The position numbers and the translations under genes are program-made. A stretch of DNA of 64,000 nt, from the IMG/VR virus record IMGVR_UViG_3300046810_000338, positions 124,001 to 188,000 of that record. One strand, written 5' to 3'. The DNA comes from a virus. Position 1 is the stretch's first letter; each line of letters starts with the position of its first letter. Below the pieces are notes generated by a model that was not told the origin of the DNA, did no database searches, and saw only the letters and a program-made list of their open reading frames with translations. Shown in pieces: positions 9,577 through 48,738 of the stretch.

Positions 9577-9612
9577 GCCACTGCCATTCCCTGTGAGGGG
9601 AATGGCAGTGGC
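9577..9612. terminator. Bidirectional hairpin terminator
   Basis: A 15-bp stem GCCACTGCCATTCCC / GGGAATGGCAGTGGC lies between convergent genes ending at 9569 and 9621. TTATGC follows on the plus strand and ATATG on the minus strand. There is no U-tract. Confidence 0.8.
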
Positions 9613-9620
9613 TTATGCTG

Positions 9621-10889
9621 TTAGATGAACAGGTCTCGCTTGATATCCAAGATGGCCCCACGGCCAGGCTGTAGGCGGTGCAAGTTGGTACGCACTGAGT
9701 CTACGGCTGGAGCGTTATGCCATTGGATAGAATGCATGCGCAGCCGGTCGTGAATGCCATCTGGCACAATGACCACCCATTTGTCCCCTTCGTCTTCCAA
9801 CACGTAACTCATCAATCGCCCATCGTGGTGAACGGCTGGAGAGGTTACGGTTTCGTGGTGCAGGAACACACAAGGATGCTGTGTGGTTTCCAAAGGGATC
9901 TTGTCGCAATAGACGTCCGGCGACTGGACGGCAATGACAAACGATTGACTGGTGGTCAACAGTTCCAGCAGGAAGTTACGACCCTTGGACTCTGGTACAG
10001 AGATCATGGTGGGGGCCAGTGGGTTGGTGGAGATAGCCGCTCGGATACGCTGCAAGTCCAGATACTTCTCAGCCTTGAGGAAGTTCTCCAAGTACGGGTA
10101 GCGCAACAGGTTCAGTTCAAAACCTGAGTTACCGATCGAGCGGAACGTGCTGCCCAGTGGAATCAGGTAACCACACAGAGAGAGCATGGCCGTGCAGTTA
10201 TCCCAATCCACATCCTGTACGTTGAGATACAGCGGGGTGTCCAACGTGGCACCGTCTTCGGGCAGCCCTGTGATCATGCTTTCCACGATCGGATAGATCT
10301 TGCACCCCCCAAGAGGAGCCAGACTCACAATGCCCACCGAGTTGATCTTGGCTACCTGAGCAGACCGACCACCTTGCTTAACGTAGAGCCCACGTTCAGA
10401 GGAGTAGGTGCGATGCAGAAAGCCGTTGACTTCCACCAGTACGTTTGCCTCAACCAGTCCAGGGGAAAGCGTTGGGTGAGTCAGCAGTAGGTCTGTACGC
10501 TCAGAGAACGGCACTGTTGGATTAGGTCCAGCACCTGGGATAACTTCCTCTACTGAAAAGTTTGCTTCCAATGCGTTGGCGTACTTGGCTTTCACCGTCT
10601 TGGTTGCGGTGAACTCGACAGTAGGCAGTGCTTTGTTAGCCAGTGCAATGAACCAATTGGCAACGGTGATTGCCGAGAAGAAGGGTTGAACGAATGTCGC
10701 CCCATCCTGAGTGAAGTCGAAAAGGTATTGCACGTTGGGACTGGCATCGTGAGTCAAGATCATGCGGCTTTGACCATAAGTTGCAGTCAGTGTCCGAACG
10801 TCCGCTGCGAGGACTTCGGCCAGGTCAACTTCTAACCAGCGCATTCCATTGGCATTCACTTTGTGATAGAACTTTCTTAGCGTGTACAT
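9621..10889 (-). CDS. Probable virion protein, unknown function
   Basis: This 422-aa protein is encoded opposite to its neighbours and diverges from the 875-aa fibre-like gene. No enzyme motif, membrane helix or signal peptide is visible. The sequence is mixed alpha/beta with many hydrophobic strands and a final QPGRGAILDIKRDLFI. The start ATG at 10889 follows GGACCGGAAC. The stop codon TAA and the following CAGCATAAG form part of the bidirectional terminator at 9577. A structural role is inferred from location only. Confidence 0.7.
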   Translation of the reverse strand: MYTLRKFYHKVNANGMRWLEVDLAEVLAADVRTLTATYGQSRMILTHDASPNVQYLFDFTQDGATFVQPFFSAITVANWFIALANKALPTVEFTATKTVKAKYANALEANFSVEEVIPGAGPNPTVPFSERTDLLLTHPTLSPGLVEANVLVEVNGFLHRTYSSERGLYVKQGGRSAQVAKINSVGIVSLAPLGGCKIYPIVESMITGLPEDGATLDTPLYLNVQDVDWDNCTAMLSLCGYLIPLGSTFRSIGNSGFELNLLRYPYLENFLKAEKYLDLQRIRAAISTNPLAPTMISVPESKGRNFLLELLTTSQSFVIAVQSPDVYCDKIPLETTQHPCVFLHHETVTSPAVHHDGRLMSYVLEDEGDKWVVIVPDGIHDRLRMHSIQWHNAPAVDSVRTNLHRLQPGRGAILDIKRDLFI

Positions 10890-10992
10890 AGTTCCGGTCC
10901 CTATATAGAGAGAAGTATGTTATGGACGATAGATGGCTATAGAATAGCCGCCCTACAAACACCCTAGAGACGGCTTTCGGAGTGCACGAGAC
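10890..10992. promoter_or_regulatory. Divergent intergenic region, candidate promoters
   Basis: This 103-nt region separates divergent genes and must hold both promoters if they are transcribed from here. A+T-rich segments CCTATATAGAG (10910-10920) and GGCTATAGAATAGCC (10934-10948) stand out; the second is a near-palindrome. No host-like -35/-10 pair is convincing. Confidence 0.35.
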
Positions 10993-13620
10993 ATGGCAAC
11001 TGATCTCAACACTGTAACCCTCCCCTTCGACCGCTGGGGGACTGCCCTCACCAACAAGCGTGAAGGCGAACGGTACGAGCTGACCGCTGTAACGTGGTCG
11101 GAATTCAACATAATCATCCCGCAGTATGCCCCTTTTTACTCGGCCTCCATCGACTACCTCGTGCATTACCCTAGCGGTGACAAACTGTATCGTGGCATTC
11201 ACTGGATCGAAGGCTGGTACTACCAGTCCGCCTCCGGTGAGATCGGCCTGGACTTGCATTGCTGCATTTACTTCTACGATCCAACGCTGAGCGGGGAGAT
11301 TCTTATCCCAAGCTATCAGGCGATGGGTGGGGAGTGGCAACTCAACGGTATTCTGTTGACTCAGATCCTGGCTAACAAGCTGCTGAACCCACTGCGTTAC
11401 TACTGGGAACAGATTGCTAACCTGCCTGAGATCTTCAACCCGCTGGACCATGACCAGGATATCCAAGACTTCACCAAACTGGGTGACCTGATCGACGTTC
11501 TGCAAGACATGGCTCGTGCGATTGACAGCACCACCGGCGATGCCGGCGCTGACTTCCGTGCACACATGATCAACTACAACAACGTTCACCAGGTAAACAA
11601 AGCGCAGGTCGGGTTGCCGTTGGTTCAGAACTACGGCATTGCTACGGCTTCTGACATCGCTCAAGGTGTGATGACCTCAACGGTGTACATGAACCCACCG
11701 ATGACCAACCTGATGATCCAGCAGATTGCCATTGCTGCCCTGGCTCAACACACCGCCGACCAGACCAACAGCCACCATGTGACTGCTGCTCAAACCGGTG
11801 CGTACAGTCAGTTGGAAATCAACGCGATGTTGGAGTCCCTGGCCAACGGGTTGCTGTACAACATCAAAGCCTACCGTCTGGAAGGCAAAAGTGTTAGCGA
11901 CATCGTGACCATGGCCAAGGAGGATTTGAATGCCTCCATCGACGCCATCAGCAAGAACGTTCAGGCCATTGTGGACAACGTTCTCAAAGATGCTCAAGTT
12001 ACCAACGCCACTCGCTTTGATAACAAGACATCGGCTGAATGGAACGTACTGATTGCTCAGTCGGCCACCGACGTAGCAACTGGTTTGATCGCTACGAAGA
12101 TGGCTGCGCTCAGTGCTACCAACTGGACGTCGATTCCTTCCATCGAAGATCTGATCAACTTGCAGATCGCTGCGGCACCAAAAGATGCCAACGGCAACCC
12201 GATCGTGCTGAACCCGCTGAACGTGACGGATAAAACCGTCGTCTTCTTTGGCGAGTACACTGCGTTCAAAGCCAACGTGGTCAACGGTGCGACAGTGCTG
12301 GAGCCTAACCAGTTCCCGCTAACGATCCAGTACAAGGCCGTGGACACCGTAAGCGATCTGTCGATCCATGCCGAGGTCACGTATAACGCTGTCATGAAAA
12401 ATGGCACTGTCATTTACACGACCGTGCTGGCCAATCCAGAAGCGACCATGATCCCAGTGATCCGTCGTCACCCAACTGACCTTACCAAAGTTCAGGTGGG
12501 CATGCGTTGGGACGCATCGAGCATGCCAGAGATTGGCTATCAGGTCATGATGGGTGTGTCGATGTTCGCCAAACTGGCAGCACCTATCGCCTGGCACACT
12601 GACGCGGCTAACGCAGGTGTTATCACCTTGCCTGCCAACTACGTCGAAGTGGTCAAGCGGATTGAGTTGGTAGGGGATGCCTCGGGTGCTGGTAAGGACT
12701 GGACTGCCGACATCACTGCCCTTAAGAAGGCGCAGGATGATCTGAAAGCTTCGATTGGCGTCATTCAGGACGCCCTCACGCTGTTCAGTAAAAACGCTGC
12801 GACAATGGGTAACCGTGTATCCGCATTGGAACGACTGAACACCCGTAACCTGACGATGTTCGCTGCTGCGAGCATCACTGGTACGGCTGGGGTCAATGTG
12901 GCTCAACCAGTTCTGGGTTGGTTTGCAGAGGCGTTGGTTACAGCTGCTACTCCAATCACGATGACCTTCCAGTTGGACAAAGGTTACATCACCTACCGCA
13001 TTGCCTACGACTTCAATTCGGCAGTGCTGCATGCGGCGTCCGACCACGACGACCTGACTACCCGTCTGTTGCCGGTGGTTACTCTGGATAGTCGCACTGT
13101 TGACGGCGTTACCAGTCAGTACCTGCGTCTGGGTGCCATCAACTTCGATGCTGCCAAGCAACTGACCATGGTTAACATCGTGTCGGTGGGCACTGCGGTG
13201 ATGGTCTTGGCTGCCCCGGTCTACAGTAACGTTGTGGACTCCAGTGCAGTAACGGTTCCGCCTGGCTTCACGCTGACCAAGTTCAGCAGTGCAACTCGGG
13301 TAGAGCTGAATGCTGTGTCGATGGCGGTCACTCAGCTGACACCGGCAGTGATGGCGGGCGATTCCTCTATCTCGGCAGCTGACACGAACATCATTGACTT
13401 GAGTGTCTTGGATGAAACCGTGTTCGATGTAGCGCATCCTAAAGTGACGGTCAGTCTTCTGGACGACACCGTAGGTAGTGCGACCCATGGCATGTACATC
13501 AACTCTGAGGCGGTCATTGTTGTGGCAACCGATGGCACCGCGGTGTATCTGGTTAACACCGATCCGGCCAATGCAGTGGACTGTCGTTACCGGGTGGAAG
13601 TTCCACGACTTCCTGTTTAA
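10993..13620 (+). CDS. Large tail fibre or baseplate-associated protein
   Basis: This 875-aa protein carries the phrase NVHQVNKAQVGLPLVQNYGIATASDIAQGV at about residues 195-225. It is a version of the NPHQVTKAQVGLGNVDN motif common in phage tail fibre and baseplate wedge proteins. A related copy occurs in the next gene. The N-terminal third is beta-rich with aromatic residues. A helical region follows (about 290-380), then long repetitive Thr/Val/Ala strands toward the C-terminus, as in trimeric fibres. The start follows a GGAGTG site. Binding or connector function in the tail is inferred; the receptor cannot be predicted. Confidence 0.8.
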   Translation: MATDLNTVTLPFDRWGTALTNKREGERYELTAVTWSEFNIIIPQYAPFYSASIDYLVHYPSGDKLYRGIHWIEGWYYQSASGEIGLDLHCCIYFYDPTLSGEILIPSYQAMGGEWQLNGILLTQILANKLLNPLRYYWEQIANLPEIFNPLDHDQDIQDFTKLGDLIDVLQDMARAIDSTTGDAGADFRAHMINYNNVHQVNKAQVGLPLVQNYGIATASDIAQGVMTSTVYMNPPMTNLMIQQIAIAALAQHTADQTNSHHVTAAQTGAYSQLEINAMLESLANGLLYNIKAYRLEGKSVSDIVTMAKEDLNASIDAISKNVQAIVDNVLKDAQVTNATRFDNKTSAEWNVLIAQSATDVATGLIATKMAALSATNWTSIPSIEDLINLQIAAAPKDANGNPIVLNPLNVTDKTVVFFGEYTAFKANVVNGATVLEPNQFPLTIQYKAVDTVSDLSIHAEVTYNAVMKNGTVIYTTVLANPEATMIPVIRRHPTDLTKVQVGMRWDASSMPEIGYQVMMGVSMFAKLAAPIAWHTDAANAGVITLPANYVEVVKRIELVGDASGAGKDWTADITALKKAQDDLKASIGVIQDALTLFSKNAATMGNRVSALERLNTRNLTMFAAASITGTAGVNVAQPVLGWFAEALVTAATPITMTFQLDKGYITYRIAYDFNSAVLHAASDHDDLTTRLLPVVTLDSRTVDGVTSQYLRLGAINFDAAKQLTMVNIVSVGTAVMVLAAPVYSNVVDSSAVTVPPGFTLTKFSSATRVELNAVSMAVTQLTPAVMAGDSSISAADTNIIDLSVLDETVFDVAHPKVTVSLLDDTVGSATHGMYINSEAVIVVATDGTAVYLVNTDPANAVDCRYRVEVPRLPV

Positions 13621-13625
13621 AGCAT

Positions 13626-13645
13626 CGCCCCTCTCAGGAGGGGCG
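13626..13645 (+). terminator. Hairpin after the 875-aa gene
   Basis: A perfect 8-bp stem CGCCCCTC / GAGGGGCG with loop TCAG begins 6 nt after the stop. No U-tract follows; it may only attenuate, since the next gene is on the same strand 24 nt later. Confidence 0.6.
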
Positions 13646-13668
13646 TTACCACCTAAGGGCTTATTGTC

Positions 13669-14511: not shown

Positions 14512-14514
14512 TCC

Positions 14515-15783: not shown

Positions 15784-15801
15784 GTCGGGGGGTAGAGTAA
15801 T

Positions 15802-15819: not shown

Positions 15820-15834
15820 GTCTTTACCCACGGG

Positions 15835-16737: not shown

Positions 16738-16770
16738 CGTTACAGATTTACTCACTATTGGGAACAGTCA

Positions 16771-18677: not shown

Positions 18678-18690
18678 GCTGCACCATAGA

Positions 18691-18717
18691 GCCGGGGCAA
18701 TGCCCCGGCCTTATGCC
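18691..18717 (+). terminator. Hairpin with TTATGCC tail
   Basis: An 8-bp stem GCCGGGGC / GCCCCGGC with a 3-nt loop is followed by C and TTATGCC (18711-18717). It lies directly downstream of the endolysin. Confidence 0.75.
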
Positions 18718-20178: not shown

Positions 20179-20209
20179 GTGGCTAGGGCTAACTGCCCTA
20201 GCCATTATG
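20179..20209 (+). terminator. Hairpin with TTATGCC tail
   Basis: A perfect 9-bp stem GGCTAGGGC / GCCCTAGCC with a 5-nt loop is followed immediately by ATTATGCC. It lies 6 nt after the stop of the 280-aa gene. Confidence 0.75.
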
Positions 20210-20229
20210 CCGCTACTGGACTTATGTAC

Positions 20230-21112: not shown

Positions 21113-21120
21113 GCAGCCTC

Positions 21121-21169
21121 TGCTCCTCCCGGCGTAGGTCGGGAGGAGCAGTATGCCGTAACTTTTTTT
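21121..21169 (+). terminator. Hairpin with TATGCC and a distal T-tract
   Basis: An 11-bp stem TGCTCCTCCCG / CGGGAGGAGCA is followed by GTATGCC and, 6 nt later, seven Ts (21163-21169). Here the TATGCC element and the T-tract coexist, which allows the two to be compared. Confidence 0.8.
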
Positions 21170-21170
21170 A

Positions 21171-21191
21171 AGACCTAGATTATCTAAGTGA
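21171..21191 (+). repeat. Intergenic repeat AGACCTAnATTATCTAnGTGA, copy 1
   Basis: This 21-nt sequence matches 45666-45686 at 19 of 21 positions. Both copies are intergenic and upstream of a gene or divergent gene pair. The 3' part, TCTAAGTGA, is also close to 20230-20238. It is a likely promoter or regulator site. Confidence 0.6.
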
Positions 21192-24022: not shown

Positions 24023-24054
24023 GGCGGGCCCCTAGAGGGGCCTGCCATTATGCC
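24023..24054 (+). terminator. Hairpin with TTATGCC tail
   Basis: A 10-bp stem GGCGGGCCCC / GGGGCCTGCC (one G-T pair) is followed by ATTATGCC. The next gene starts only 21 nt further at 24075, so the TATG could also be promoter-proximal. Confidence 0.7.
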
Positions 24055-24353: not shown

Positions 24354-24986
24354 ATGTCATTGCCAGGTGAAATCGACCGCGTTGCCAAGCCCCGCAGCTG
24401 TGAAGTTAGAAAATGTAGGGCAGAGGCGTTTAATCGTATTTGCATTGAGTCCGATTCGTTCGGTTCAGAATACGAGTACATGTGTGACAAGCACATTGAT
24501 GGGTATCGGGCCAATCTGGCCAAGGCTGAGCCTGAGGAAGGCGAGTGCCGGTGGTGCAAGAAGATGGCCATTCTAAAACCAACCAGAGACTGGGAGGAGG
24601 GTTCTCACGGGCCAGTGTACTACGTCTGCCAACCCTGTATCGATCGTAACAATCAAGTCGATGACAGTGAGGAGGAAGAAGAGGAAGATGACGACTGGGA
24701 AAGTCAGGAAGACGAACCTGATCTGATGGACGATGACGACGATGAACCAACCCTTGAGGAAGAGTTGGAACACAGTCTTAAAACCACATTGCTTAATAGT
24801 GGTATGTCTCATCATTCGGCCATGGAACTCATCAGTCGCATTTGGACATTTGTCGAGGTAGTCGATGCACACATCACTCGACATGAAGTTCTCCAATCAA
24901 TCATTGGAAACATTGAGAAGAGGATCATCGATGAACAAGCCGAAAGAAAAGCCGCTGCCCTCATCAGAGCCATCCAAGCCCCCTGA
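24354..24986 (+). CDS. Zinc-ribbon-like protein with acidic segment
   Basis: This is 210 aa from ATG 24354 behind AAGGAGGA. Two cysteine clusters are visible: Cys16, Cys21, Cys30, Cys44 and His47, then Cys65-x2-Cys68 and Cys92-x2-Cys95. They are consistent with two treble-clef or zinc-ribbon folds. Residues 103-140 are almost entirely Glu and Asp, followed by a helical C-terminal domain (HHSAMELISRIWTFVEVVDA). Zinc ribbons with acidic tails often bind proteins or compete for nucleic-acid-binding surfaces. A role in transcription or host takeover is possible but unproven. Confidence 0.75.
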   Translation: MSLPGEIDRVAKPRSCEVRKCRAEAFNRICIESDSFGSEYEYMCDKHIDGYRANLAKAEPEEGECRWCKKMAILKPTRDWEEGSHGPVYYVCQPCIDRNNQVDDSEEEEEEDDDWESQEDEPDLMDDDDDEPTLEEELEHSLKTTLLNSGMSHHSAMELISRIWTFVEVVDAHITRHEVLQSIIGNIEKRIIDEQAERKAAALIRAIQAP

Positions 24987-25074
24987 TCTACCGTCTGACC
25001 CAGATTCTGGTTGGGCGTTAGATGAACAGTGGCCAGATGAGTCACCTGATGGATTTGATCCACCAGACGAATAA
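24931..25074 (+). CDS. Pro/Ser/Asp-rich 47-aa protein overlapping the zinc-ribbon gene
   Basis: This short frame starts inside the end of the zinc-ribbon gene in another frame (56-nt overlap), behind AGAGG. The protein is highly biased (KPKEKPLPSSEPSKPPDLP, then DSGWALDEQWPDESPDGFD) and negatively charged, with no expected fold. It runs up to the hairpin at 25086. The base composition of the non-overlapping part and the terminator right after it favour a real gene, but the evidence is modest. Confidence 0.5.
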   Translation: MNKPKEKPLPSSEPSKPPDLPSDPDSGWALDEQWPDESPDGFDPPDE

Positions 25075-25085
25075 AGCCCATAATG

Positions 25086-25119
25086 CCCACTCCTCCTAGC
25101 TCTAACTAGGAGGAGTGGG
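25086..25119 (+). terminator. Strong hairpin terminator
   Basis: A perfect 14-bp stem CCCACTCCTCCTAG / CTAGGAGGAGTGGG with a 6-nt loop. CCCATAATG precedes it and ACTTCTAC follows. It is the longest uninterrupted stem noted in this part of the window. Confidence 0.75.
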
Positions 25120-25140
25120 ACTTCTACTACAGGAGGAGCT

Positions 25141-25272
25141 ATGACTCCCTTTGAACGACTCAAACTGCTCACTGGTGCTCAGTGTGCAGCTCTTCCATCT
25201 GCTACCCAAAAGCGCACTTCGCCTCAGGAGCTACTGGCTTTGGTAACGCGACTTAAATCGCTCACACTATAA
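25141..25272 (+). CDS. 43-aa protein with strong ribosome site
   Basis: ATG 25141 is preceded by AGGAGGAGCT, one of the best ribosome sites in the window. The product (MTPFERLKLLTGAQCAALPS and so on, ending TRLKSLTL) is 43 aa, slightly basic and probably helical. The gene lies between two hairpins (25086 and 25281), so it looks like a short single-gene unit. No similarity is recognised. Confidence 0.65.
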   Translation: MTPFERLKLLTGAQCAALPSATQKRTSPQELLALVTRLKSLTL

Positions 25273-25280
25273 GGATGATA

Positions 25281-25306
25281 AGGCTGGCCTCTACGGAGGC
25301 TGGCCT
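25281..25306 (+). terminator. Hairpin terminator of the 43-aa gene
   Basis: An 11-bp stem AGGCTGGCCTC / GAGGCTGGCCT (two G-T pairs) closes a TACG tetraloop, with GTCTTTACTC after it and a run of Ts at 25325-25332. Confidence 0.7.
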
Positions 25307-25335
25307 GTCTTTACTCTACCCTTTATTTTTTTGTA

Positions 25336-25343
25336 TTTAAGTG
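25336..25343 (+). promoter_or_regulatory. Candidate promoter element TTTAAGTG before the structured region
   Basis: An A+T-rich stretch (25318-25375) with TTTAAGTG, related to the TCTAnGTGA motif at 20230, 21183 and 45678. It precedes the structured non-coding region, so it could drive a separate small RNA. Assignment is by resemblance only. Confidence 0.3.
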
Positions 25344-25407
25344 CAAATTATTCCACCTATTTTTAGGGGGAACCTAGCGGAGCGACGGAGGGGGTCAGGT
25401 GATATGC

Positions 25408-25533
25408 CGTTGGCTAGATGAAGCGATTGTGAGGGGTTCTAACAATTACTGCCAACGCTTCCTTTGTTCTCAACTAAGCTGAAGGGCTTGTCCTGGAGGG
25501 ACAGCCCAGAAGCGACTAGGAGGCCCACAGGGC
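25408..25533 (+). ncRNA. Candidate structured RNA
   Basis: This stretch has no credible gene but contains nested complementary segments. Helix A is CGTTGGC (25408-25414) with GCCAACG (25451-25457), enclosing ATTGT/ACAAT (25426-25430 with 25442-25446). Helix B is CGCTTC (25456-25461) with GAAGCG (25509-25514), enclosing a hairpin of GGGCT-GTCC (25484-25493, one bulged T) with GGAC-AGCCC (25499-25507). A small GCCC/GGGC hairpin follows at 25523-25533. A promoter-like stretch lies upstream and a strong bidirectional hairpin at 25574 downstream. Helices A and B share two nucleotides, so they may alternate. No known RNA family is recognised. Confidence 0.45.
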
Positions 25534-25573
25534 TTCAATGCAGTAAATACCATACACACTACTAGGGCATAAA

Positions 25574-25601
25574 GCCAGGCTCCCTACAGGGGAAGCCTGG
25601 C
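25574..25601. terminator. Bidirectional hairpin terminator
   Basis: The stem GCCAGGCT..CCC / GGG..AGCCTGGC (GA bulge) is flanked by GGCATAA on the left and GACTTATGAC on the right. It separates the plus-strand non-coding region from the minus-strand operon ending at 25624. Confidence 0.75.
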
Positions 25602-25623
25602 GACTTATGACACAGAGGATTGC

Positions 25624-26079
25624 TTACGTTGACGGATCAGTTCCAGAGCCAGACCCTGAATGGTCTTTCGTAATACATTCGCCGCCTGCACTTGCTGTGA
25701 CGGAGTGTGTTTCAGAACACTTTGCACCAGGTCGATCTGGCACAGCGGTTGTCCAGGCATTGAGGAAGTCTTCCTGTCGGTCGTAGTGTTTGTCCAAGGC
25801 TTCTTTAAGCCACTGGTCGTTCATACCCAATGCAGCAGTGCCAGGGAAGCGCCGTAGGCTACGGACCCATTCCTTGTCCTCGGCAGATAGCGTACCACCG
25901 TTAAACAATTGCCCATTTATTTCAGCCAATCGATCAATCATCTTGGCTTGATCGACCACCTGTTCTTTGAGCTTTTCAATGATGGCATTGAAAGGACTCA
26001 GCAGTGCCTGAGTAAACCCATCCTTAGGTTCCTTAGGAGGTTGTCCCAAGACCGTCATTCGTTCCTGAAACCTTCTCAT
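25624..26079 (-). CDS. Unknown protein, last gene of the minus-strand operon
   Basis: This is 151 aa from ATG 26079, which overlaps the upstream stop (ATGA) and follows GGGGGTGA; a longer in-frame version exists but would run deep into the previous gene. A coiled coil is likely at about 35-60 (LLSPFNAIIEKLKEQVVDQAKMIDRLAEI). An acidic helical part and a Ser/Gly/Thr-rich tail (SGSGSGTDPST) follow. No motif is recognised. Confidence 0.65.
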   Translation of the reverse strand: MRRFQERMTVLGQPPKEPKDGFTQALLSPFNAIIEKLKEQVVDQAKMIDRLAEINGQLFNGGTLSAEDKEWVRSLRRFPGTAALGMNDQWLKEALDKHYDRQEDFLNAWTTAVPDRPGAKCSETHSVTASAGGECITKDHSGSGSGTDPST

Positions 26080-33580: not shown

Positions 33581-33587
33581 CAGCATA

Positions 33588-33621
33588 ATTCCCTCCTTCC
33601 CCTAATGAGGAAGGAGGGAAT
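33588..33621. terminator. Bidirectional hairpin terminator
   Basis: The stem ATTCCCTCCTTCC / GGAAGGAGGGAAT lies between convergent genes. GCATA precedes it and CTATGCC follows on the plus strand; on the minus strand the hairpin is followed by TATGC. Confidence 0.8.
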
Positions 33622-33624
33622 GGC

Positions 33625-34491
33625 CTATGCCGTGTACACGTATTCAGCTGGGGCTGGAGCATCTTCGCCAGCGACATGCCAGTTACGACCTTCGGCCAAC
33701 ACACCGTCGGTTTTGATCAGGCACTCGTTGAAACCATTGTTTGGCGTCATGGTAATAATGCTGCGGCGGCCAGTGTGTTTGTCGAAGTCGATTTCGCCGA
33801 TCCATTTGCCTTGGGCGTTGAAGTACGGAATCAGAGCTTCCAGCAGAATCTTCGACCAGTTCTCGAAGCCTGCACCGGTTTCCAGGTCGTCCAACAGATC
33901 ACGCAACGAAAACATGCCACGAATGATCTGATTAGGCTCTTTACTTTCGATGACGCTACCGGCCGGCAGAGTAGCAACCGACAACGCAGCGAAGTGGATT
34001 TGACCGATGGCGTTGGAGTTGTCGTTGATCCAGCCGAAATGAGAGTAGACTGTGGGGTGCATGCCCGACCCACGAGGCTTGATGATCTCGATCTCTTCTG
34101 CACCCACTTCACGCTCACGGCTGGCTTCCAGGGAAGCGAAGAAGTCGGTGTTACCTTCCCCGTCGCTACGCCGGTCGGTGGCAAAGTCAACGTGACCACT
34201 GTAGCCGAGGGAGTACAGGCCCATCAGTTTTTCTTCGCCAACAGTTTTGGCCCGTTGATAGACAGAGAGCAGATCAGGCTTGTTCTGGTCATCATTGAGG
34301 ATGATGAAGAAGGTGTAGTCGATGGGTTGTTTCTCTGTGGCCCGAGCCTTGAGCACGGCCCGGTCTTCCCAGACAGCATCACCGGATACAGCACAACCGA
34401 AACCTTCGCGGGTCTGCGTGCTGTCCAGAAACAGTTGGTCCAGCAGATCGTCTACGGCTTCGCGTGGATAAGCCAATACTACTTCACCCAT
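33625..34491 (-). CDS. Unknown 288-aa protein
   Basis: Start at ATG 34491 behind AAAAGGAG; a longer frame to 34551 would run through the ribosome site. The stop TAG lies inside the flank of the bidirectional terminator. It begins MGEVVLAYPREAVDDLLDQLF and continues with strands (PIDYTFFIILND) and helices; the middle has YSHFGWINDNSNAIGQIHFAALSV. The composition is acidic. I recognise no family or active-site motif; a virion or assembly role is possible from its neighbours. Confidence 0.7.
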   Translation of the reverse strand: MGEVVLAYPREAVDDLLDQLFLDSTQTREGFGCAVSGDAVWEDRAVLKARATEKQPIDYTFFIILNDDQNKPDLLSVYQRAKTVGEEKLMGLYSLGYSGHVDFATDRRSDGEGNTDFFASLEASREREVGAEEIEIIKPRGSGMHPTVYSHFGWINDNSNAIGQIHFAALSVATLPAGSVIESKEPNQIIRGMFSLRDLLDDLETGAGFENWSKILLEALIPYFNAQGKWIGEIDFDKHTGRRSIITMTPNNGFNECLIKTDGVLAEGRNWHVAGEDAPAPAEYVYTA

Positions 34492-34563
34492 GGGGTTACT
34501 CCTTTTGCGTGATTGAAGGTACGTACAAACTATCCCTCCCTTCAATTTCATTTAACGGCATAA

Positions 34564-34585
34564 CTCTCCCCCACTCGGGGGAGAG
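34564..34585 (-). terminator. Hairpin with TTATGCC tail
   Basis: A perfect 9-bp stem CTCTCCCCC / GGGGGAGAG with a 4-nt loop. Read on the minus strand it is followed by TTATGCC and lies directly after the stop of the 207-aa gene at 34588. Confidence 0.75.
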
Positions 34586-34587
34586 CC

Positions 34588-35211
34588 TTATGTCGTGGCT
34601 GGTTTAACAATGCCCGATTGAAGAATGATCTGCTCGTAGCGTGCAGCCAAAGCAGTAGCCTTGTTCAATTGGTCTTGCAGGGTTTGGTTCTGAGCGTAGT
34701 GAGTAGTGCGACCACGGATGGCTGCAATACGGTTCTGCTCAAAGCTCTCTGCCTGCTCAGGAGTCAGCAGCCCGGTGATAGGTGCTGTGAACTGCTGTAC
34801 ATCGCTTTGCAGCCCGGTCAAGTCACTGACCAGTGCTACGATCTCGGCGGTCACGTAGGTAAGGTCCAGGCCGTCTGGCAGAATACCAATGTCCACTCCA
34901 ATCACCATCCGACTGAAACCTTCCCCAACCGTGGTTGGGGCAGACAGGATGTAGGTGGTTGGAATGATAACCGTCGGATGCTCGTCTGCCTGCAATGTAA
35001 CCAGGCTGGTAGCATTTACCCGATCAGAGTCATAGGTCGCCTGGTCCAGACCCATGGGCGCATAGTAGTTGGCAAAGATATCAATGCCCGCTGCCTGCAC
35101 CTCACGGAAACTACGAATGGCGGTGGCCGTGTAACTAACATCTGCCACCAACGCAAACGGAGCTTGGACCTCGAACTTACCCCGTGCATAGATAAGAACT
35201 GAAGTTGCCAT
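34588..35211 (-). CDS. Unknown 207-aa protein, probable virion component
   Basis: It is cotranscribed with the 445-aa gene upstream (11-nt gap). The N-terminal part is beta-rich (TSVLIYARGKFEVQAPFALVADVSYTATAI). The C-terminal third is a probable coiled coil (QAESFEQNRIAAIRGRTTHYAQNQTLQDQLNKATALAARYEQII). This looks like a tail or baseplate subunit, by style only. The TAA stop is part of ACATAAGG, the left flank of the hairpin at 34564. Confidence 0.7.
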   Translation of the reverse strand: MATSVLIYARGKFEVQAPFALVADVSYTATAIRSFREVQAAGIDIFANYYAPMGLDQATYDSDRVNATSLVTLQADEHPTVIIPTTYILSAPTTVGEGFSRMVIGVDIGILPDGLDLTYVTAEIVALVSDLTGLQSDVQQFTAPITGLLTPEQAESFEQNRIAAIRGRTTHYAQNQTLQDQLNKATALAARYEQIILQSGIVKPATT

Positions 35212-39721: not shown

Positions 39722-39730
39722 CAGCATAAC

Positions 39731-39762
39731 CCCTCCCTCCGACCGTCAGGCTGGAGGGAGGG
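39731..39762. terminator. Bidirectional hairpin terminator
   Basis: The stem CCCTCCCTCC / GGAGGGAGGG lies between convergent genes. The plus strand has GCATAA before and AAGTTATGTC after it; the minus strand has TTATGC after it. Confidence 0.8.
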
Positions 39763-39770
39763 AAGTTATG

Positions 39771-41027
39771 TCATTGCCAGTTATAGATCTTGCTGTCGTC
39801 GTCTTGAGTGAACGCCAGCACCAGTGCCTCAACCGTCAGGATACTGCATGCGATGGTATCGCTGTCGGAGCCCTGAGCCGCTGCCAATAGGTTAAGGTTG
39901 GTGATCGGATACAGATGCTCGCCGATGCGTACCGCACCTACAGCGTCCTTGGAGTAGCTGTATTCATCGGTGTCATCGGTACCTACCAACGGGTCACGCT
40001 GAAGGTGCTCGAACACCCAATCCAGATCGGACAGGGGAACCACCTCGTGGTCAGGCCAGTTCAGTTTGTCTTTGACGAAACTGTACGGGATCTTGACGCC
40101 GCCGAACGTGAAGTGTTGTTCGCTCGTCTGCACGAAAGACTCGGTGGCCATCTTGCGACTTTCAGCCAACGGCTTCTTGAGTTCGCCGACTTGATGATCA
40201 CATGCAACCACCAGCTCACGAATCAGGATACCCATTTGACCATACAGGTCAACTGCCTGACTCATGTTCAGGCAGATGCCTGACAGAATAGTAGCAGTCT
40301 GCGCCGAGAGCTTGGGCGTACTCTCATCAGTGCCCTTCTCGATGATGTCGATCACACGACCCACCTTCTCGGAGATCTCACGCACCTGTTTTACAATCTT
40401 GCTAGGATTGGTTTCCAGGTAACGAGTGGCCAACGAGTTAGCGTTGTCCCAAGTAGGCTTGATGGCCGACAGGTTAGGGTACACCGCTTGCAGGGGCAGA
40501 GAATCCACACGCCCGGTTGGATCAACGAACTTGCTCAGTGCGGCACGAGTGCCTTCGATGTCCTGTTCCTTGAAGTGCTTGAGATCGGTTACGCCAGCAG
40601 CCGAGGCCAGGGTGTCAGGACTGGCGATGCGCAGGCTCAACCAGATGCTGAAAGGCTTGAGCACTTCGTTCTCAATGTTCTCAACCTTGAGCAAGGCGTC
40701 GAACAGAGACTCGCTGTAATCGGCCAGGCCGCCCTTGAGACCACGAGGGGTGGTGATCTTGACCTGAGAGATGTCGCTGAAGCGGGCACCGGCCAGATCT
40801 TTGATAACGCTGTTGTAGGCAACCAGAGGAATCTTGGCATCGGGACGGATGCGGTTGTTGGACCAGTCGCCAATGATGTTGGCCACACCACGCAGTTTGG
40901 CATGCACAGAGGACACAACGTCGCCCACCATGCCGATCCCCAACGCGTCGGTGATGATCATCTGGTGTTTAAGTTCAAGATCGCGCATTTCAAGTACCGT
41001 CCACAATGTCGGATTAATAGGTTCCAC
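39771..41027 (-). CDS. Unknown 418-aa protein, probable virion or assembly protein
   Basis: A largely helical protein with segments such as DSLPLQAVYPNLSAIKPTWDN, KIVKQVREISEKVGRVIDIIEKG (coiled coil) and QTATILSGICLNMSQAVDLYGQMGILIRELVVACDHQ. No enzyme motif, signal or membrane helix is recognised. It diverges from the RecA-like gene, with a 96-nt intergenic region that contains TTAAGTGA on its own strand. In phiKZ-type phages this neighbourhood encodes inner-head proteins, so that is the first idea to test. Confidence 0.7.
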   Translation of the reverse strand: MEPINPTLWTVLEMRDLELKHQMIITDALGIGMVGDVVSSVHAKLRGVANIIGDWSNNRIRPDAKIPLVAYNSVIKDLAGARFSDISQVKITTPRGLKGGLADYSESLFDALLKVENIENEVLKPFSIWLSLRIASPDTLASAAGVTDLKHFKEQDIEGTRAALSKFVDPTGRVDSLPLQAVYPNLSAIKPTWDNANSLATRYLETNPSKIVKQVREISEKVGRVIDIIEKGTDESTPKLSAQTATILSGICLNMSQAVDLYGQMGILIRELVVACDHQVGELKKPLAESRKMATESFVQTSEQHFTFGGVKIPYSFVKDKLNWPDHEVVPLSDLDWVFEHLQRDPLVGTDDTDEYSYSKDAVGAVRIGEHLYPITNLNLLAAAQGSDSDTIACSILTVEALVLAFTQDDDSKIYNWQ

Positions 41028-42632: not shown

Positions 42633-42645
42633 ATGCTATCTGTGC

Positions 42646-42669
42646 GGGAGTGGTCCTGTAGCCACTCCC
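42646..42669 (+). terminator. Hairpin after the RecA-like gene
   Basis: A perfect 8-bp stem GGGAGTGG / CCACTCCC with an 8-nt loop, just after the stop. There is no U-tract; the next gene starts 15 nt later with TTGAGGCC as its possible ribosome site. Confidence 0.6.
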
Positions 42670-42683
42670 TTGAGGCCTGAACA

Positions 42684-43031: not shown

Positions 43032-43043
43032 CATAGGTGCCCC

Positions 43044-43718: not shown

Positions 43719-43727
43719 GAGATTGTA

Positions 43728-44333
43728 ATGGAATTGGATCGCGCTCAGGCAGCTGCGCATTACGTGGGTCAGGCACAAGAGGCTTTGGCTATTGTTCTGG
43801 CTCGCTGCGAATGGACCTATGGTCAAGACGCCGCCAAGAAAGCTGCACTGATGTTCACGCAGTTGTTCTTCGGTCACAACCTGCCGCTCTACTGCGAACC
43901 CAATGAAGTGCTGACCTTGTTTAACACGATCAGTACCACCGCCATTTCCCCAAAGGTTTGGGGTGGTGAATTCATTATGGGCCTGAGTCAGCAGTTCAAC
44001 ATGTTTGTTGAACCTGCCGTGCAGTACCCACACGTCAAGTCGCCCGCTGACCAGCAACCAAAACTGACAGAGTTGGGCTGGCACCTGGTTGCAGCCATGA
44101 CAGGCATGCATGGCGATACGCCTAAGGACGTTGATCAAGACCTGGTACACCCTTACGGTCACTACATGCTCGACGTGCCCAAGGCGTACCAGGTGACAAC
44201 GATCCTGTTCAACTTCCCTTGGATGACACCGCTCTATCTGTTGTCTCTGGCAGACCCTGCGCACATCTCGGTCATCGTCGGCCCGTATGGCTCACGAGAC
44301 ATCCCTGCCGGTTCCGAGCAAGACGGTGCGTGA
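43728..44333 (+). CDS. Unknown 201-aa protein
   Basis: The ATG follows AGGAGATT, 10 nt after the polymerase fragment. A helix QAAAHYVGQAQEALAIVLARCEW opens the protein. A mixed middle includes LGWHLVAAMTGMHGDTPKDVDQDLVHPYGHYMLDVPKAYQ, and the C-terminus looks disordered (GSRDIPAGSEQDGA). No family is recognised. The next gene overlaps its stop (GTGA), pointing to coupled translation. Confidence 0.65.
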   Translation: MELDRAQAAAHYVGQAQEALAIVLARCEWTYGQDAAKKAALMFTQLFFGHNLPLYCEPNEVLTLFNTISTTAISPKVWGGEFIMGLSQQFNMFVEPAVQYPHVKSPADQQPKLTELGWHLVAAMTGMHGDTPKDVDQDLVHPYGHYMLDVPKAYQVTTILFNFPWMTPLYLLSLADPAHISVIVGPYGSRDIPAGSEQDGA

Positions 44334-45076
44334 ACCGTCGTAAGTTCTGCGTGTTCCTAGACGCTATTCTGGATACGCGTCTGGGAGCCATGAACACCTT
44401 CAGTCCGGATATCTCTGGTAAGCTGGTAGAGACGCCCGACTACTTCAACCGTATCGATGACAACTATGATCGGTTTGGTCCAGGCGTGACCATGATGTGG
44501 CGCAACATCTACGCAGGTCGTAATGTTGAGGTCTTGAAAAGCAGTTTCCCAACCATGATCCCTGCACTGGTAGGTTTGGAAGTTCGCTCGATCTACGCCA
44601 AAGCCATTGACCACCCAGTGCACAAAGGGGTGGACGTTGACATCAACATCTGGCCTTACAAGCTGGATGATATCGAGCAGGATGAAATCTGTCTGGCGTT
44701 GCAGTCTATGATCATTCCCGTCGACGAGTACGACGAGTATGCATTTGACACCCGGTTCAGAACGATCAGTGTTGCTCCCAAGGATTTTACCCTGGAACTG
44801 ATTCGTGAGAACTACGCCATGGTGATCATGTACGACTTTCAGGAGTGGTACGACATCCAGGCAGCGGAGATCATCAAAGGCGAGTCTACTGCGCGTCTGA
44901 CTACGATGTGTGTGCCGATGTTGTTCAAGCACACGCCCAAACGTAAGGATTTGATTGCGCAGGATGGGCAGATACAAAACCCATTCGACGATACCAAACG
45001 AATCCTCTCCCTGTACATCCAATTGGATTTCTGGGATGCACGGGTGTTTTCTCTACCGAGCCCATTCGAAGCATAA
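44330..45076 (+). CDS. Unknown 248-aa protein
   Basis: The start proposed is GTG 44330, which overlaps the upstream stop by 4 nt; ATG 44390 is an alternative (228 aa). It contains NRRKFCVFLDAILDTRLGAM, a central DQPVHKGVD-like segment and many Asp/Glu (DIEQDEICLALQSM, DEYDEYAFDTRF). The end is beta-rich (RILSLYIQLDFWDARVFSLP). No motif is recognised. The GCATAA stop region is part of the bidirectional terminator. Confidence 0.65.
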   Translation: MNRRKFCVFLDAILDTRLGAMNTFSPDISGKLVETPDYFNRIDDNYDRFGPGVTMMWRNIYAGRNVEVLKSSFPTMIPALVGLEVRSIYAKAIDHPVHKGVDVDINIWPYKLDDIEQDEICLALQSMIIPVDEYDEYAFDTRFRTISVAPKDFTLELIRENYAMVIMYDFQEWYDIQAAEIIKGESTARLTTMCVPMLFKHTPKRKDLIAQDGQIQNPFDDTKRILSLYIQLDFWDARVFSLPSPFEA

Positions 45077-45079
45077 GCC

Positions 45080-45111
45080 CTCTCCCTCTTCCCGCAAAGG
45101 AAGAGGGAGAG
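45080..45111. terminator. Bidirectional hairpin terminator
   Basis: A 13-bp stem CTCTCCCTCTTCC / GGAAGAGGGAGAG is flanked by GCATAAGCC and GTATGCC, between convergent genes. The plus-strand gene ends in GCA-TAA, both codons being part of the element. Confidence 0.85.
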
Positions 45112-45117
45112 TATGCC

Positions 45118-45636
45118 CTAGCTTGGATCATGTTCAAGCAGGTTGTTATTGACCCGTGCGTGCTTCTGAGCCAGGTCTTTGTAGGTTATCGTTTGAACAC
45201 CCACATCCATCTCACCAGGCACCGTTGATATCTCAGGCAGACTGGAGTCGTCGATGTGCGGCAACTCGCGTATCCCCGTACGAGCAGTAGGGTCACGCAA
45301 CAGGGGCTTGTTACCTTGCCGCCGGCTGAGTTCAACCAAAGCCTGTGCCACCAACTGTTCGCGCGCAGCAGCAGTGTTGTCGGTCTTCTGTTTCATCAGA
45401 CCAAATGAAACTTGGTCCATGTTGGACAACGTGACCAACAGCAGCTTGGCATCATCCAGATCTTTAGGGACCTTGGTGCCGTCATTGGTTAGGTTGTTGA
45501 CTATCTTGAGCCTGACCGACTGTGTAAGGGCCAAAACCCCTTCAGGTGTATCAGGCAACTTATCTGGATTCTCGTACGCCGGGATCTTGCTAGGCACGTA
45601 GGTATCCAGTTCTTCTTCTCCCATCAATTCTGTCAT
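45118..45636 (-). CDS. Unknown 172-aa protein, weak terminase small-subunit candidate
   Basis: ATG 45636 lies behind GTGGAG; an upstream in-frame GTG is part of that site. The middle is a helical pair (RLKIVNNLTNDGTKVPKDLDDAKLLLVTLSNMDQVSFGLMKQKTDN) with a basic helix (AQALVELSRRQGNKP). The layout of a short linker between two helices with a basic end is seen in T4 gp16-type DNA-packaging small subunits, but the similarity is faint. Without a large terminase in the window the idea is unsupported. Confidence 0.5.
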   Translation of the reverse strand: MTELMGEEELDTYVPSKIPAYENPDKLPDTPEGVLALTQSVRLKIVNNLTNDGTKVPKDLDDAKLLLVTLSNMDQVSFGLMKQKTDNTAAAREQLVAQALVELSRRQGNKPLLRDPTARTGIRELPHIDDSSLPEISTVPGEMDVGVQTITYKDLAQKHARVNNNLLEHDPS

Positions 45637-45665
45637 GATATTCTCCACGAATATAAGGAAATCTC

Positions 45666-45686
45666 AGACCTAAATTATCTACGTGA
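45666..45686 (+). repeat. Intergenic repeat AGACCTAnATTATCTAnGTGA, copy 2
   Basis: Matches 21171-21191 at 19 of 21 positions. It lies in the 147-nt region between the divergent starts at 45636 and 45784, a natural promoter location. Confidence 0.6.
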
Positions 45687-45783
45687 GATAGACAAGTCTG
45701 TTATATTTCAAAGCTACTAAATATGTGTATAGGCTACTTACGACTAGGCGCATGTGATGTTCAAGAAAATCTGGAGATGGATA

Positions 45784-46269
45784 ATGGAGGAGGATGAGGA
45801 CGTAATTACCCCTCAGCCCGATCCGCTAGCAGATCGCATGACGTCGATGTTGGATGTACTTGGCCGATTTGCAAGCCTGCTAGCGCAACACCGGTGGAAA
45901 GGACGCAGGGTAACCTGGCGCACCTCCACAATAACCAGTGTCCATTCGGACATTTATAATCTAATCGATACCGTACGGAGCACCACCCATGCAGTCATGG
46001 TCAAAGGAAAACCAGAAACGACCACCCGACTCAGCCGCAGATTTGTGGACAACCTAACCACGACTACTCTCGATGGCTACCTCGTTGACGAACAAGGTAT
46101 GTCTACCGAACCGAGTGTCATTATGCAGGAGCTGATTACCGCTGTCAGGGAACTGGTCGCCAACATCAACCTGTGTAAGGAAAGCGATGCCATGAACTAT
46201 GAATGGTATCTTGCACAATGCTCAAATCTGTTTGTCGAGCTAGAGATTGTATTTAAGGCCTACCTCTAG
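45784..46269 (+). CDS. Unknown 161-aa protein
   Basis: ATG 45784 is preceded by GGAGAT at a good distance; an in-frame ATG at 45757 (adding FKKIWRWI) has no ribosome site. The protein is helical with a central WKGRRVTWRTSTITSVHSDIYNLIDTVRST region and an acidic start. The C-terminal helices contain ELITAVRELVANINLC and NYEWYLAQCSNLFVELEIVF. No family is recognised. The A+T-rich upstream region carries the repeat motif. Confidence 0.6.
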   Translation: MEEDEDVITPQPDPLADRMTSMLDVLGRFASLLAQHRWKGRRVTWRTSTITSVHSDIYNLIDTVRSTTHAVMVKGKPETTTRLSRRFVDNLTTTTLDGYLVDEQGMSTEPSVIMQELITAVRELVANINLCKESDAMNYEWYLAQCSNLFVELEIVFKAYL

Positions 46270-46295
46270 TCTCCTCAAGCTGAGGGTCTTTCTGG

Positions 46296-46988
46296 ATGAG
46301 TACACAAAGAGGGAGTGACATCTCAATTTTGTTGGCCTCTCACGACAAACGTATCCGAGAAGCGTCTGGCTTATTGAGCAGGCTGTATCGGTTAACCTTG
46401 CTTGAGCTGTCGATAACCCCGTATAAGTGGAACCTGTTGCTGACCAACTACTTGGACAATCTGGCTCACACCCAGAGTCTGTCTCAGGACAAGATTACGA
46501 ACGAGCGCAACAACCTGCGTAAGGGACTGTCTGAGCCTGACATGACATTCGAGATGTTGGCCCGAGGATTAAAGGTCCTCAATCCAAAGGAGATTCATTT
46601 TGACGTGGAGTTAATGTTCCCCCAGAACGTGACACTCACAACGACGATCAACATGATCTCCCCACAGAACGGCGAACAGGGAAAGCTGACTGAGATGTAT
46701 AGCAACATCCTTGCCATGCTTGGCAAGGACGTGAACAACCTGGAACCGGAGATAGATGCCTACCTCTCCAATCCGTTGATTCGCGAAGATATAAAAGGAC
46801 GCAAGAAAGGAAACGACAAGGGCAACCTACGTCGTGAACTACCAGGCATGGCCATGACTTTTGACGTGTTCAAGAAAGGACTACGGATTCTTGCACCCGA
46901 TGAAGTAACCATGACCATCCGACTGCGGTGGAATCGCAGTCGTGTCACCAAACACAAGCTTATCATTGTTACCCCCAAGCAAGCATAA
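46296..46988 (+). CDS. Unknown 230-aa protein with duplicated domain
   Basis: Two copies of an approximately 70-residue unit are visible. The first has NERNNLRKGLSEPDMTFEML, then ARGLKVLNPKEIHFDVELM and strands. The second has NDKGNLRRELPGMAMTFDVF, then KKGLRILAPDEVTMTIRLRW. Both read N-L-R-(K/R)-x-L-(4)-MTF-(3)-(A/K)-(R/K)-GL-(K/R)-(V/I)-L-x-P-x-E followed by paired strands. An N-terminal helical segment precedes them. I recognise no function. It may bind a repetitive partner such as DNA or another virion protein; that is speculation. Confidence 0.7.
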   Translation: MSTQRGSDISILLASHDKRIREASGLLSRLYRLTLLELSITPYKWNLLLTNYLDNLAHTQSLSQDKITNERNNLRKGLSEPDMTFEMLARGLKVLNPKEIHFDVELMFPQNVTLTTTINMISPQNGEQGKLTEMYSNILAMLGKDVNNLEPEIDAYLSNPLIREDIKGRKKGNDKGNLRRELPGMAMTFDVFKKGLRILAPDEVTMTIRLRWNRSRVTKHKLIIVTPKQA

Positions 46989-46993
46989 GTCAG

Positions 46994-47025
46994 CCCTCTC
47001 TCCAGCCTTCGGGTTGGAGAGAGGG
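46994..47025 (+). terminator. Long hairpin with UUCG loop
   Basis: A 14-bp stem (CCCTCTCTCCAGCC / GGTTGGAGAGAGGG with one G-T pair) closes a TTCG tetraloop. A T-rich stretch (TTTATTTTTT) begins about 15 nt after the stem. The gene before it ends GCA-TAA within the motif GCATAAG. Confidence 0.85.
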
Positions 47026-47088
47026 TCTGTTGCCCTCGGTTTATTTTTTGGCCAATCCTATAGTCCTTTTATCAGTGGAATCCTAATC

Positions 47089-48099
47089 ATGAGAACAAAC
47101 ATTGCCCCGACTACGATCTACACGGGTATCGATGAAAAGCTTAAGGTTAAAGACGCCGCTGATATCACGGGCGCAACCGGTAACACCTCGGTAATCGATG
47201 CACTGTCTGGCATGAAAGATGAGGTCGTAGATACCTTACGTAAAACACCTCAGCTGGCTTCCAGGTTGACCCAGTTGGTTCTGGATGTAAAGAATGGTCG
47301 GGCAACAGGCACCGATACCGCTTCTCGTATTGCCAGTGTCTTTAGCAACCGAGGCGGGGTGTTGGACGATCTGTCTAACAGAGCCAAAGGCGTCATGCAA
47401 GATTCGCTGGGTATGTCCCCAGCACTGGCTAACCAGGTATTCATTGCAGCCAAGGGCACTGTCCTGGCCGGTACTGCGTACTTGGGTTCTAGCCGAGACA
47501 TCAGCAGTGCCTCAGGCGTTGCCTCGACACTGCAACGCCTGCTCAATGACAAAGACGCTATCCAGTACGTGGATCTGTCTGCTCAAGCTTCTCTGCTGTC
47601 CGGTGTGATGAACGAGGCTATCAAGTCGGGCATCCCTCAAGGCATCGACATGCTGATGAAGCAGGCGGCCACAGACGCCCAGCGTAGTGCCATTGCCAGT
47701 CAGAACTTGTACGCTGTGGTGTTCAGCGGTAACTTGGATACCGTGGAAGCTATGGTCAAGTACGTAACCCCTGAGGCTATCAAAGCTCGCTATCCAACCT
47801 TTGCTCGTGACTTCCTGGCCCAGTACACCTTGCTGGCCACCGATAACCCACTCACCTACGCTCCAGCTAAAGCCAGAATCTTGGCGCTGTTTCGACTGAT
47901 TGATCCCGTTTGGGACATTACGATGCGTAACGGTGCGCCGGTCCCCTCCCTAGCTCCGTTCGTGTCGGCCTCATCGGATGCTGTGAAAGTATTTGCAACC
48001 TCCGATGAATACCGTAATGCAATGACCATTGCTCCTGGCTTCAAGTCAGTTGAGGCCAAGGCTTGGATTAAACAGCATTACTCGTTCTTCCCTGCTTAA
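47089..48099 (+). CDS. Unknown 336-aa protein, probable virion protein
   Basis: Start at ATG 47089 behind GTGGAA; a longer frame to 46942 would run through the terminator. A largely helical protein rich in Ala, Ser and Leu (LASRLTQLVLDVKNGRATGTDTASRIASVF). An inner region (AYLGSSRDISSASGVASTLQRLL) is consistent with helical bundles of head or inner-body proteins. No signal, membrane or catalytic motif is recognised. A DUF1353 gene follows after 14 nt. Confidence 0.65.
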   Translation: MRTNIAPTTIYTGIDEKLKVKDAADITGATGNTSVIDALSGMKDEVVDTLRKTPQLASRLTQLVLDVKNGRATGTDTASRIASVFSNRGGVLDDLSNRAKGVMQDSLGMSPALANQVFIAAKGTVLAGTAYLGSSRDISSASGVASTLQRLLNDKDAIQYVDLSAQASLLSGVMNEAIKSGIPQGIDMLMKQAATDAQRSAIASQNLYAVVFSGNLDTVEAMVKYVTPEAIKARYPTFARDFLAQYTLLATDNPLTYAPAKARILALFRLIDPVWDITMRNGAPVPSLAPFVSASSDAVKVFATSDEYRNAMTIAPGFKSVEAKAWIKQHYSFFPA

Positions 48100-48113
48100 C
48101 AAAGGCAAAAGTC

Positions 48114-48692
48114 ATGGCTGACAAAGTGCTGATCGTCCCCATACGGCAGTTTAACTTGTATAGCGTTGCATACAACAAGGAGTTCACAGAAGCACTCGGT
48201 AAACCCTACTGGCTGACCAATGAAAACTACGTTTATTACTTGGGCGATAAGTTCAGTAATGAATGGGTGCTGGTACCCCGTGGGTTTGGTACGGATGGCG
48301 CAACTGTCCCTCCAGCCTTTCAGGGCATTCTACCGGTGTTTGGTAAACATGGAGCAGCCGTTATCTTGCATGACTGGTTGTGTGAGAACGGCTATGTGTG
48401 GCACATGGACAAGGCAACTGGGATTGTCCATAAACGGGTGCTGACCCGTAAGGAAATCGATTCTGTTTTCATCGAAGCCCTGACCGTGGTTGAAATGCCA
48501 GCCGATACTATCAAGCTGGTTAACTTGGGCTTTATCGCCTATCGCAGTTGGGCTAACCCATCTGTCCCTAACCCCAACATTGAAAAGAACAAATTGGAAA
48601 TGAACTGGGCTGCCAACAATGGGGTAGTCCCCTTTTCTGGTGAGCAGCTGTACGACGTTGTAGGTCACCCGCCTGCTTGGGTATTCGTGTAA
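48114..48692 (+). CDS. DUF1353 family protein
   Basis: This 192-aa protein has the family pattern at about 48-92: WVLVPRGFGTDGATVPPAFQ followed by LPVFGKHGAAVILHDWLCENG (V-P-x-G-F-x-T-D then A-A-x-x-H-D). A following helix with IDSVFIEALTVVEMPADTIKL matches the D-x-x-F-x-E-A part of the family. DUF1353 proteins are small phage and bacterial proteins of unknown function, often near lysis or tail genes. The His-Asp pair might bind a metal. The protein has no membrane helix. Confidence 0.8.
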   Translation: MADKVLIVPIRQFNLYSVAYNKEFTEALGKPYWLTNENYVYYLGDKFSNEWVLVPRGFGTDGATVPPAFQGILPVFGKHGAAVILHDWLCENGYVWHMDKATGIVHKRVLTRKEIDSVFIEALTVVEMPADTIKLVNLGFIAYRSWANPSVPNPNIEKNKLEMNWAANNGVVPFSGEQLYDVVGHPPAWVFV

Positions 48693-48700
48693 GCGACATA

Positions 48701-48730
48701 GCCTCCTGCTCCTGTGAGGGAGCAGGAGGC
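48701..48730. terminator. Bidirectional hairpin terminator
   Basis: A 12-bp stem GCCTCCTGCTCC / GGAGCAGGAGGC with a 6-nt loop lies between convergent genes. GTATGCTGTTA follows it on the plus strand; on the minus strand it is followed by TATGTC. Confidence 0.8.
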
Positions 48731-48738
48731 GTATGCTG

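Follow-up and report, generated by a model that had tools for sequence, protein, structure and literature searches.

Results

Genome and RNA polymerases

The window analyzed here is a stretch of 64,000 nucleotides, positions 124001-188000 of a 228,499-base IMG/VR record. Megablast of a 14-kb piece of the window against phage records found no DNA relative, and neither Rfam nor tRNA scanning produced a match in the window. The phiKZ subunits gp68, gp71, gp73, gp74, and gp123 of the non-virion RNA polymerase (nvRNAP) and gp80, gp149, gp178, and gp180 of the virion RNA polymerase (vRNAP) were used as queries, and we found a homologue of each in the record. Since subunits of both enzymes are encoded, the record is, by its protein sequences, a phiKZ-type jumbo phage (228 kb) with both multisubunit RNA polymerases. 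The GP123 homologue lies at record positions 119708-121267 and matches PDB 7ogp_E (1.6e-54). One vRNAP gene falls within the window:

58010-59635, plus strand: vRNAP beta-like subunit, homologue of phiKZ gp180 (34% identity, by protein comparison).

Its 541-aa product belongs to phrog_2986, phage RNA polymerase beta subunit, and shares 38-39% identity with proteins of Erwinia, Klebsiella, and other jumbo phages.

Hairpins followed by TATG

An initial annotation made from the letters of the window had pointed to eleven hairpins with a TATGC-like element directly 3' of the stem, and each is present as described. These sites, together with one exception, are as follows (window coordinates):

9571-9618, both strands: predicted convergent bidirectional terminator; stem-loop 9577-9612, TTATGC on the plus strand (9613-9618), TATG on the minus strand (9571-9574).
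18685-18717, plus strand: predicted same-strand terminator; stem-loop 18685-18715 with TTATG inside its 3' arm (18711-18715), then CC.
20181-20211, plus strand: predicted same-strand terminator; stem-loop 20181-20203, then ATTATGCC.
21120-21158, plus strand: predicted same-strand terminator; stem-loop 21120-21151, then TATGCCG, with an early-promoter-like motif directly downstream at 21171.
24023-24054, plus strand: predicted same-strand terminator; stem-loop 24023-24046, then ATTATGCC.
25565-25609, minus strand: stem-loop 25574-25601, reading stem-TTTATGCCC on the minus strand after the minus-strand gene 25624-26058; TTATG on the plus side (25605-25609).
33583-33631, both strands: predicted convergent bidirectional terminator; stem-loop 33588-33621, CCTATGCC on the plus strand, TTATGC on the minus strand (GCATAA at 33583-33588).
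34556-34592, minus strand: predicted minus-strand terminator; stem-loop 34564-34585, TTATGCCG on the minus strand (CGGCATAA at 34556-34563), CCTTATG on the plus side.
39724-39771, both strands: predicted convergent bidirectional terminator; stem-loop 39731-39762, TTATGTC on the plus strand, TTATGC on the minus strand.
45071-45117, both strands: predicted convergent bidirectional terminator; stem-loop 45080-45111, TATGCC on the plus strand, CTTATGC on the minus strand, the GCATAA overlapping the stop of gene 44330-45076.
46983-47025, no strand assigned: exception; stem-loop 46994-47025 follows gene 46296-46988, which ends GCATAA, and its sense side lacks TATG.
48697-48736, both strands: predicted convergent bidirectional terminator; stem-loop 48701-48730, GTATGC on the plus strand, TATGTCG on the minus strand.

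Both genes said to end in GCA-TAA, at 45076 and 46988, do so. Between 9577 and 48738 there are 18 gene-end hairpins, of which 11 scored positive for TATG at 15 nt or less on one or both gene-end sides. The same interval holds a convergent junction of about 640 nt without a called gene (24987-25623), with strong hairpins at 24986, 25086, 25281, and 25574.

The association is not random. Hairpins were called from structure alone, TATG playing no part in finding them, and record-wide TATG lies within 12-15 nt 3' of the stem at 46-48 of the 80 gene-end hairpins. In the whole-genome scan that had been proposed as a check, the count at 15 nt or less was 46/80, as compared with 4/272 for the flanks of genic hairpins (Fisher 6e-31); among random intergenic 15-mers, 3.9% contain TATG (binomial 2e-43 for the gene-end hairpins). 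An unbiased count of all 4-mers after gene-end hairpins ranked TATG as the top word (41/80 versus 2.0 expected, corrected p 3e-41) in a genome with a GC content of 52%. The further proposal that the element takes the place of a U-tract is supported by the scarcity of T runs, TTTT occurring in 9/80 and TTTTT in 2/80 of these flanks, and by a canonical terminator scan of 30-50 kb that showed no excess (18 versus 15.5 expected from shuffles). About 40% of gene-end hairpins are without TATG, and some of these have TTTATAC or T-rich tails.

Anatomy and strand use

Across 12 phages, 134 of 165 sites have the first T of TATG at +1 to +4, counted from the final G-C pair of the stem, the mode being +3. 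The usual form of this (T)TTATG element is stem-TTTATGCCGT, and alignment of the sites gives the consensus TTTATG, then C (60%), C (60%), G (54%), and T (54%). The stems are GC rich and start a median of 9 nt past the upstream stop codon. In same-strand gaps the spacing from stem to next gene is variable, with the next start a median of 63 nt downstream, so TATG as the start codon of the next gene was ruled out. The gap to the next start is longer with a TATG hairpin than without one (63 versus 31 nt in the median, p = 0.002). This would be expected if transcripts end at these hairpins rather than the hairpins being spacers inside operons.

At convergent junctions we observed the arrangement originally noted, with GCATAA before the stem and TTATGC after it, so that TATG points out of the gene on both strands; 28 of 33 hairpins at such junctions in this genome carry it. 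Convergent junctions also have the highest TATG rate over the 12 phages (102/123), and neither copy faces a gene start. The companion statement, that same-strand junctions have only the 3' copy, stands for 13 of the 25 hairpins between plus-strand genes with any copy, whereas 9 carry a copy on each side and 3, among them 46994-47025, just the 5' one; it is thus a tendency and not a rule. The strand bias itself is real, with the sense copy favored in this genome (18/47 versus 11/62 antisense, p = 0.03) and at same-strand hairpins of the 12 phages (63/171 versus 43/221, p = 1.5e-4), and antisense TATG, at about 20% of same-strand hairpins, is still above background. In divergent spacers of this genome sense and antisense TATG are about equal (12 versus 11). 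Divergent upstream sequence has a single copy of the longer word TATGCC in 3.1 kb here and none in 7.2 kb of the other phages; in hairpin-bearing same-strand gaps the word occurs at 1.4-2.4 per kb.

Distribution across jumbo phages

Twelve phages were scored as TATG positive (this phage, an IMG/VR relative, phiKZ, 201phi2-1, Noxifer, OBP, FLC9, Eowyn, RAY, SA002, Proteus phage 10, and Goslar) and seven polymerase-encoding phages as negative (SPN3US, EL, Miami, sm033, phiR1-37, AR9, and S6). The pooled frequencies, 183/327 and 8/156 gene-end flanks, respectively, describe this split and do not test it, as the labels were set from the same counts; the per-phage 4-mer tests are the independent evidence. 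DNA is almost unrelated across the 12 phages, and CATAA-stem-TTATG is found at convergent junctions of phiKZ, RAY, Eowyn, Proteus phage 10, and the 49-kb IMG/VR relative, which differ in their stems and in GC (38-55%). Since the negative phages use TTAT, TTTA, TATT, or U-rich tails, TTAT may be the older, shared part of the signal, to which particular lineages added the G (with CCGT). OBP, EL, and Miami form one clade (100/100 support), within which TATG follows 18/28 hairpins in OBP versus 4/54 in EL and Miami (p = 9e-8).

Several phages show other tails. A run of about 7-12 T lies a few nucleotides past TATG on one strand only at convergent junctions of RAY, Proteus phage 10, and SA002, which suggests a second signal of the U-tract type. 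Gene-end hairpins of Vibrio phage sm033 are followed by TTATC or TTAT rather than TATG, possibly a variant of the element, and those of SPN3US have CTTT- or TTTT-rich tails close to ordinary U-tracts, its own polymerases notwithstanding.

Probable early promoters

An early-promoter-like motif, AGACCTA-ATTATCT-AGTGA (AGACCTAaATTATCTAAGTGA), recurs in 19 copies at 5 or fewer mismatches, weak matches among them, all on the plus strand, and copies immediately precede the gp68, gp71-74, and gp123 homologues; it is probably the early (virion-polymerase) promoter of this phage. Copies include:

21171-21191, plus strand: early (vRNAP-type) promoter-like motif AGACCTAGATTATCTAAGTGA, assigned from its repetition, its restriction to the plus strand, and its place upstream of nvRNAP genes.
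45666-45686, plus strand: early promoter-like motif AGACCTAAATTATCTACGTGA, assigned from motif recurrence.
Record positions 13004, 16290, 43225, 50539, 71409, and 76429, plus strand: further copies, assigned from motif recurrence.
Record positions 112267, 118351, 191351, and 213781, plus strand: further copies, likewise assigned.

TATG follows 18 of 20 hairpins at minus-strand gene ends, where there is no early promoter, versus 6 of 22 at plus-strand ends in early segments, as set by a simple rule (p = 4e-5). This contrast would suit a signal of the late polymerase, but most minus-strand ends are convergent, so that it is confounded with junction type (convergent versus same-strand). Within what looks like an early segment (record 214208-217919), a run of gene-end hairpins is without TATG and has TTTATAC, CTTACC, and other tails; these hairpins may be virion-polymerase terminators.

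Discussion

Our preferred reading, to which we give a probability of roughly 0.7, is that these elements are intrinsic-type terminators of the nvRNAP, in which a GC-rich hairpin after the stop codon is followed within 1-4 nt by (T)TTATG in place of a U-tract. From the architecture, position, strand use, and enrichment of the sites, and from their conservation in 12 phages, we infer that transcription ends there. The comparisons support their behaving as terminators and not as promoters, because the stems adjoin the stop codon and TATGCC is almost absent from divergent spacers; the convergent arrangement argues in the same direction. A single stem would terminate both strands at convergent pairs, since TATG flanks it on both sides. 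We regard the terminator reading as well supported, the substitution of TATG for the U-tract as likely, and the mechanism outlined next as plausible.

Purified phiKZ nvRNAP needs 5'-TATG-3' at -3 to +1, with G as +1, and every single substitution in it strongly lowers transcription (PMC4666361). A pocket of the beta-like subunit GP123 binds the tetramer on the non-template strand, and in the transcribing complex as published this pocket is described as being incomplete (PMC12809450). One could envision the hairpin shortening the RNA-DNA hybrid while the polymerase stalls with TATG in the active-center region, where the GP123-like subunit would grip it through its beta-lobe pocket, after which the weak UUUAU hybrid would release. 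As GP123 is a core subunit kept through elongation, it could hold a TATG downstream of a hairpin in the same register, but the incomplete state of the pocket means that gripping it during elongation would need the lobe to reopen. The GP123 homologue has S, F, K, K, H, S, F, and Q at the positions aligned with phiKZ S144, F151, K158, K190, H331, S334, Y406, and Q466, and R and Y at positions 399 (Y) and 402 (S). In a comparison of 15 phages, aligned at only about 20-30% identity, the equivalents of positions 190/406 are R/F in OBP and T or S/H in EL and Miami. Pocket residues and TATG covary only partly: sm033, which is without TATG terminators, keeps several, and EL and Miami keep others. The contrast between OBP and EL/Miami is thus suggestive only as a link to the nvRNAP. 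We advance with some doubt, as a possibility somewhat short of even odds, the broader idea that the same GP123-type pocket reads TATG twice, once at the promoter start and again within the elongation bubble past a hairpin, locking promoter and terminator evolution together, with EL and Miami having changed both.

Alternatively, TTTAT could be a short and degenerate U-tract behind the stem of an ordinary Rho-independent terminator, in which case the G and CCGT after it would be incidental. TTAT, TTTA, or TATT is indeed enriched after gene-end hairpins in most of the jumbo phages examined, some of them TATG negative, and a stable RNA of about 100 nt from the PHIKZ298 3' UTR of phiKZ, attributed to processing (PMC8545117), probably ends at a stem with TTATA behind it, which fits the TTAT core and not TATG itself. 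We nevertheless consider this explanation unlikely, given the conservation of the positions after TATG, the excess of TATG at 52% GC, and the rarity of TTTT. The role of TATG as a necessary late-promoter motif in phiKZ (PMC4666361) raises a different prospect, that the copy past the stem drives late transcription of the next gene, or of antisense RNA, the hairpin itself being a separate terminator or RNA stabilizer; the median of 63 nt to the next start at same-strand junctions would make a plausible leader. Under such circumstances TATG should not be most frequent at convergent junctions, where it faces no gene start, and a promoter there would point into antisense, the very objection raised in the initial annotation. 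Nor would one expect TATGCC to be almost absent from divergent spacers, where promoters must lie, or TATG to be equally common on their two strands; in the p119L late promoter region of phiKZ, a divergent spacer, the sole sense TATG reads TATGTAG, not TATGCC. A promoter function at the hairpin sites is thus improbable. The choice originally posed between promoter and terminator falls in favor of the terminator at these sites but is not exclusive for the tetramer, which appears to serve both functions in different settings.

Two further explanations were considered. A phage-nucleus endonuclease or RNA-binding protein might recognize stem-UUAUG for RNA 3'-end processing or export, in keeping with the position of the element directly after stop codons and with the processing proposed for the phiKZ RNA (PMC8545117), but this would leave both the match to the polymerase start-site tetramer and the difference between OBP and EL/Miami unexplained, and we judge it highly improbable. 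The sequence CGGCATAA-stem-TTATGCCG is an inverted repeat and could act at the DNA level at convergent junctions, as a protein-binding site or cruciform; with half of the same-strand plus-strand sites having the 3' copy only, and with that copy preferred overall, we find this barely credible.

Read as nvRNAP terminators, the elements resemble bacterial intrinsic terminators in having a GC-rich stem-loop within about 10 nt of the stop that is bidirectional at convergent genes, and differ in having the sequence-specific TTATG(CCGT) instead of a U run, part of which would be left untranscribed if release occurs at TAT/G. They share with the phiKZ nvRNAP late promoter its tetranucleotide (5'-TATG-3', G = +1) and an encoded polymerase of the same type; unlike that promoter, TATG here follows a gene-3' hairpin, is extended by CCGT, and shows no enrichment in divergent spacers. 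In bacterial RNA polymerase, base contacts of promoter type are reused in elongation, as in pausing at the core recognition element and sigma-dependent pausing. There too a base-specific contact holds the polymerase, whereas here the contact is proposed to be coupled to a hairpin and to lead to termination. A TTAT motif has reportedly been mentioned for phiKZ terminators. The terminators of AR9 and phiR1-37 are likewise hairpins at operon ends of phages with multisubunit polymerases, but have T-rich tails without TATG, and AR9 promoters are AACA-6N-TA/G; in AR9, RNA-seq showed termination at the predicted sites (PMC5312081). Our literature search found no paper on hairpin-TATG terminators, and an earlier description is possible.

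The reviews and structural studies that we searched say very little about how transcription stops for the phage-encoded multisubunit polymerases of nucleus-forming phages. With a sequence rule valid in 12 phages, operon boundaries can be placed in genomes where ordinary terminator finders miss them, and a direct in vitro test comes within reach, because phiKZ nvRNAP has already been purified. Hairpin-TATG terminators would also partly explain why TATG alone is no promoter.
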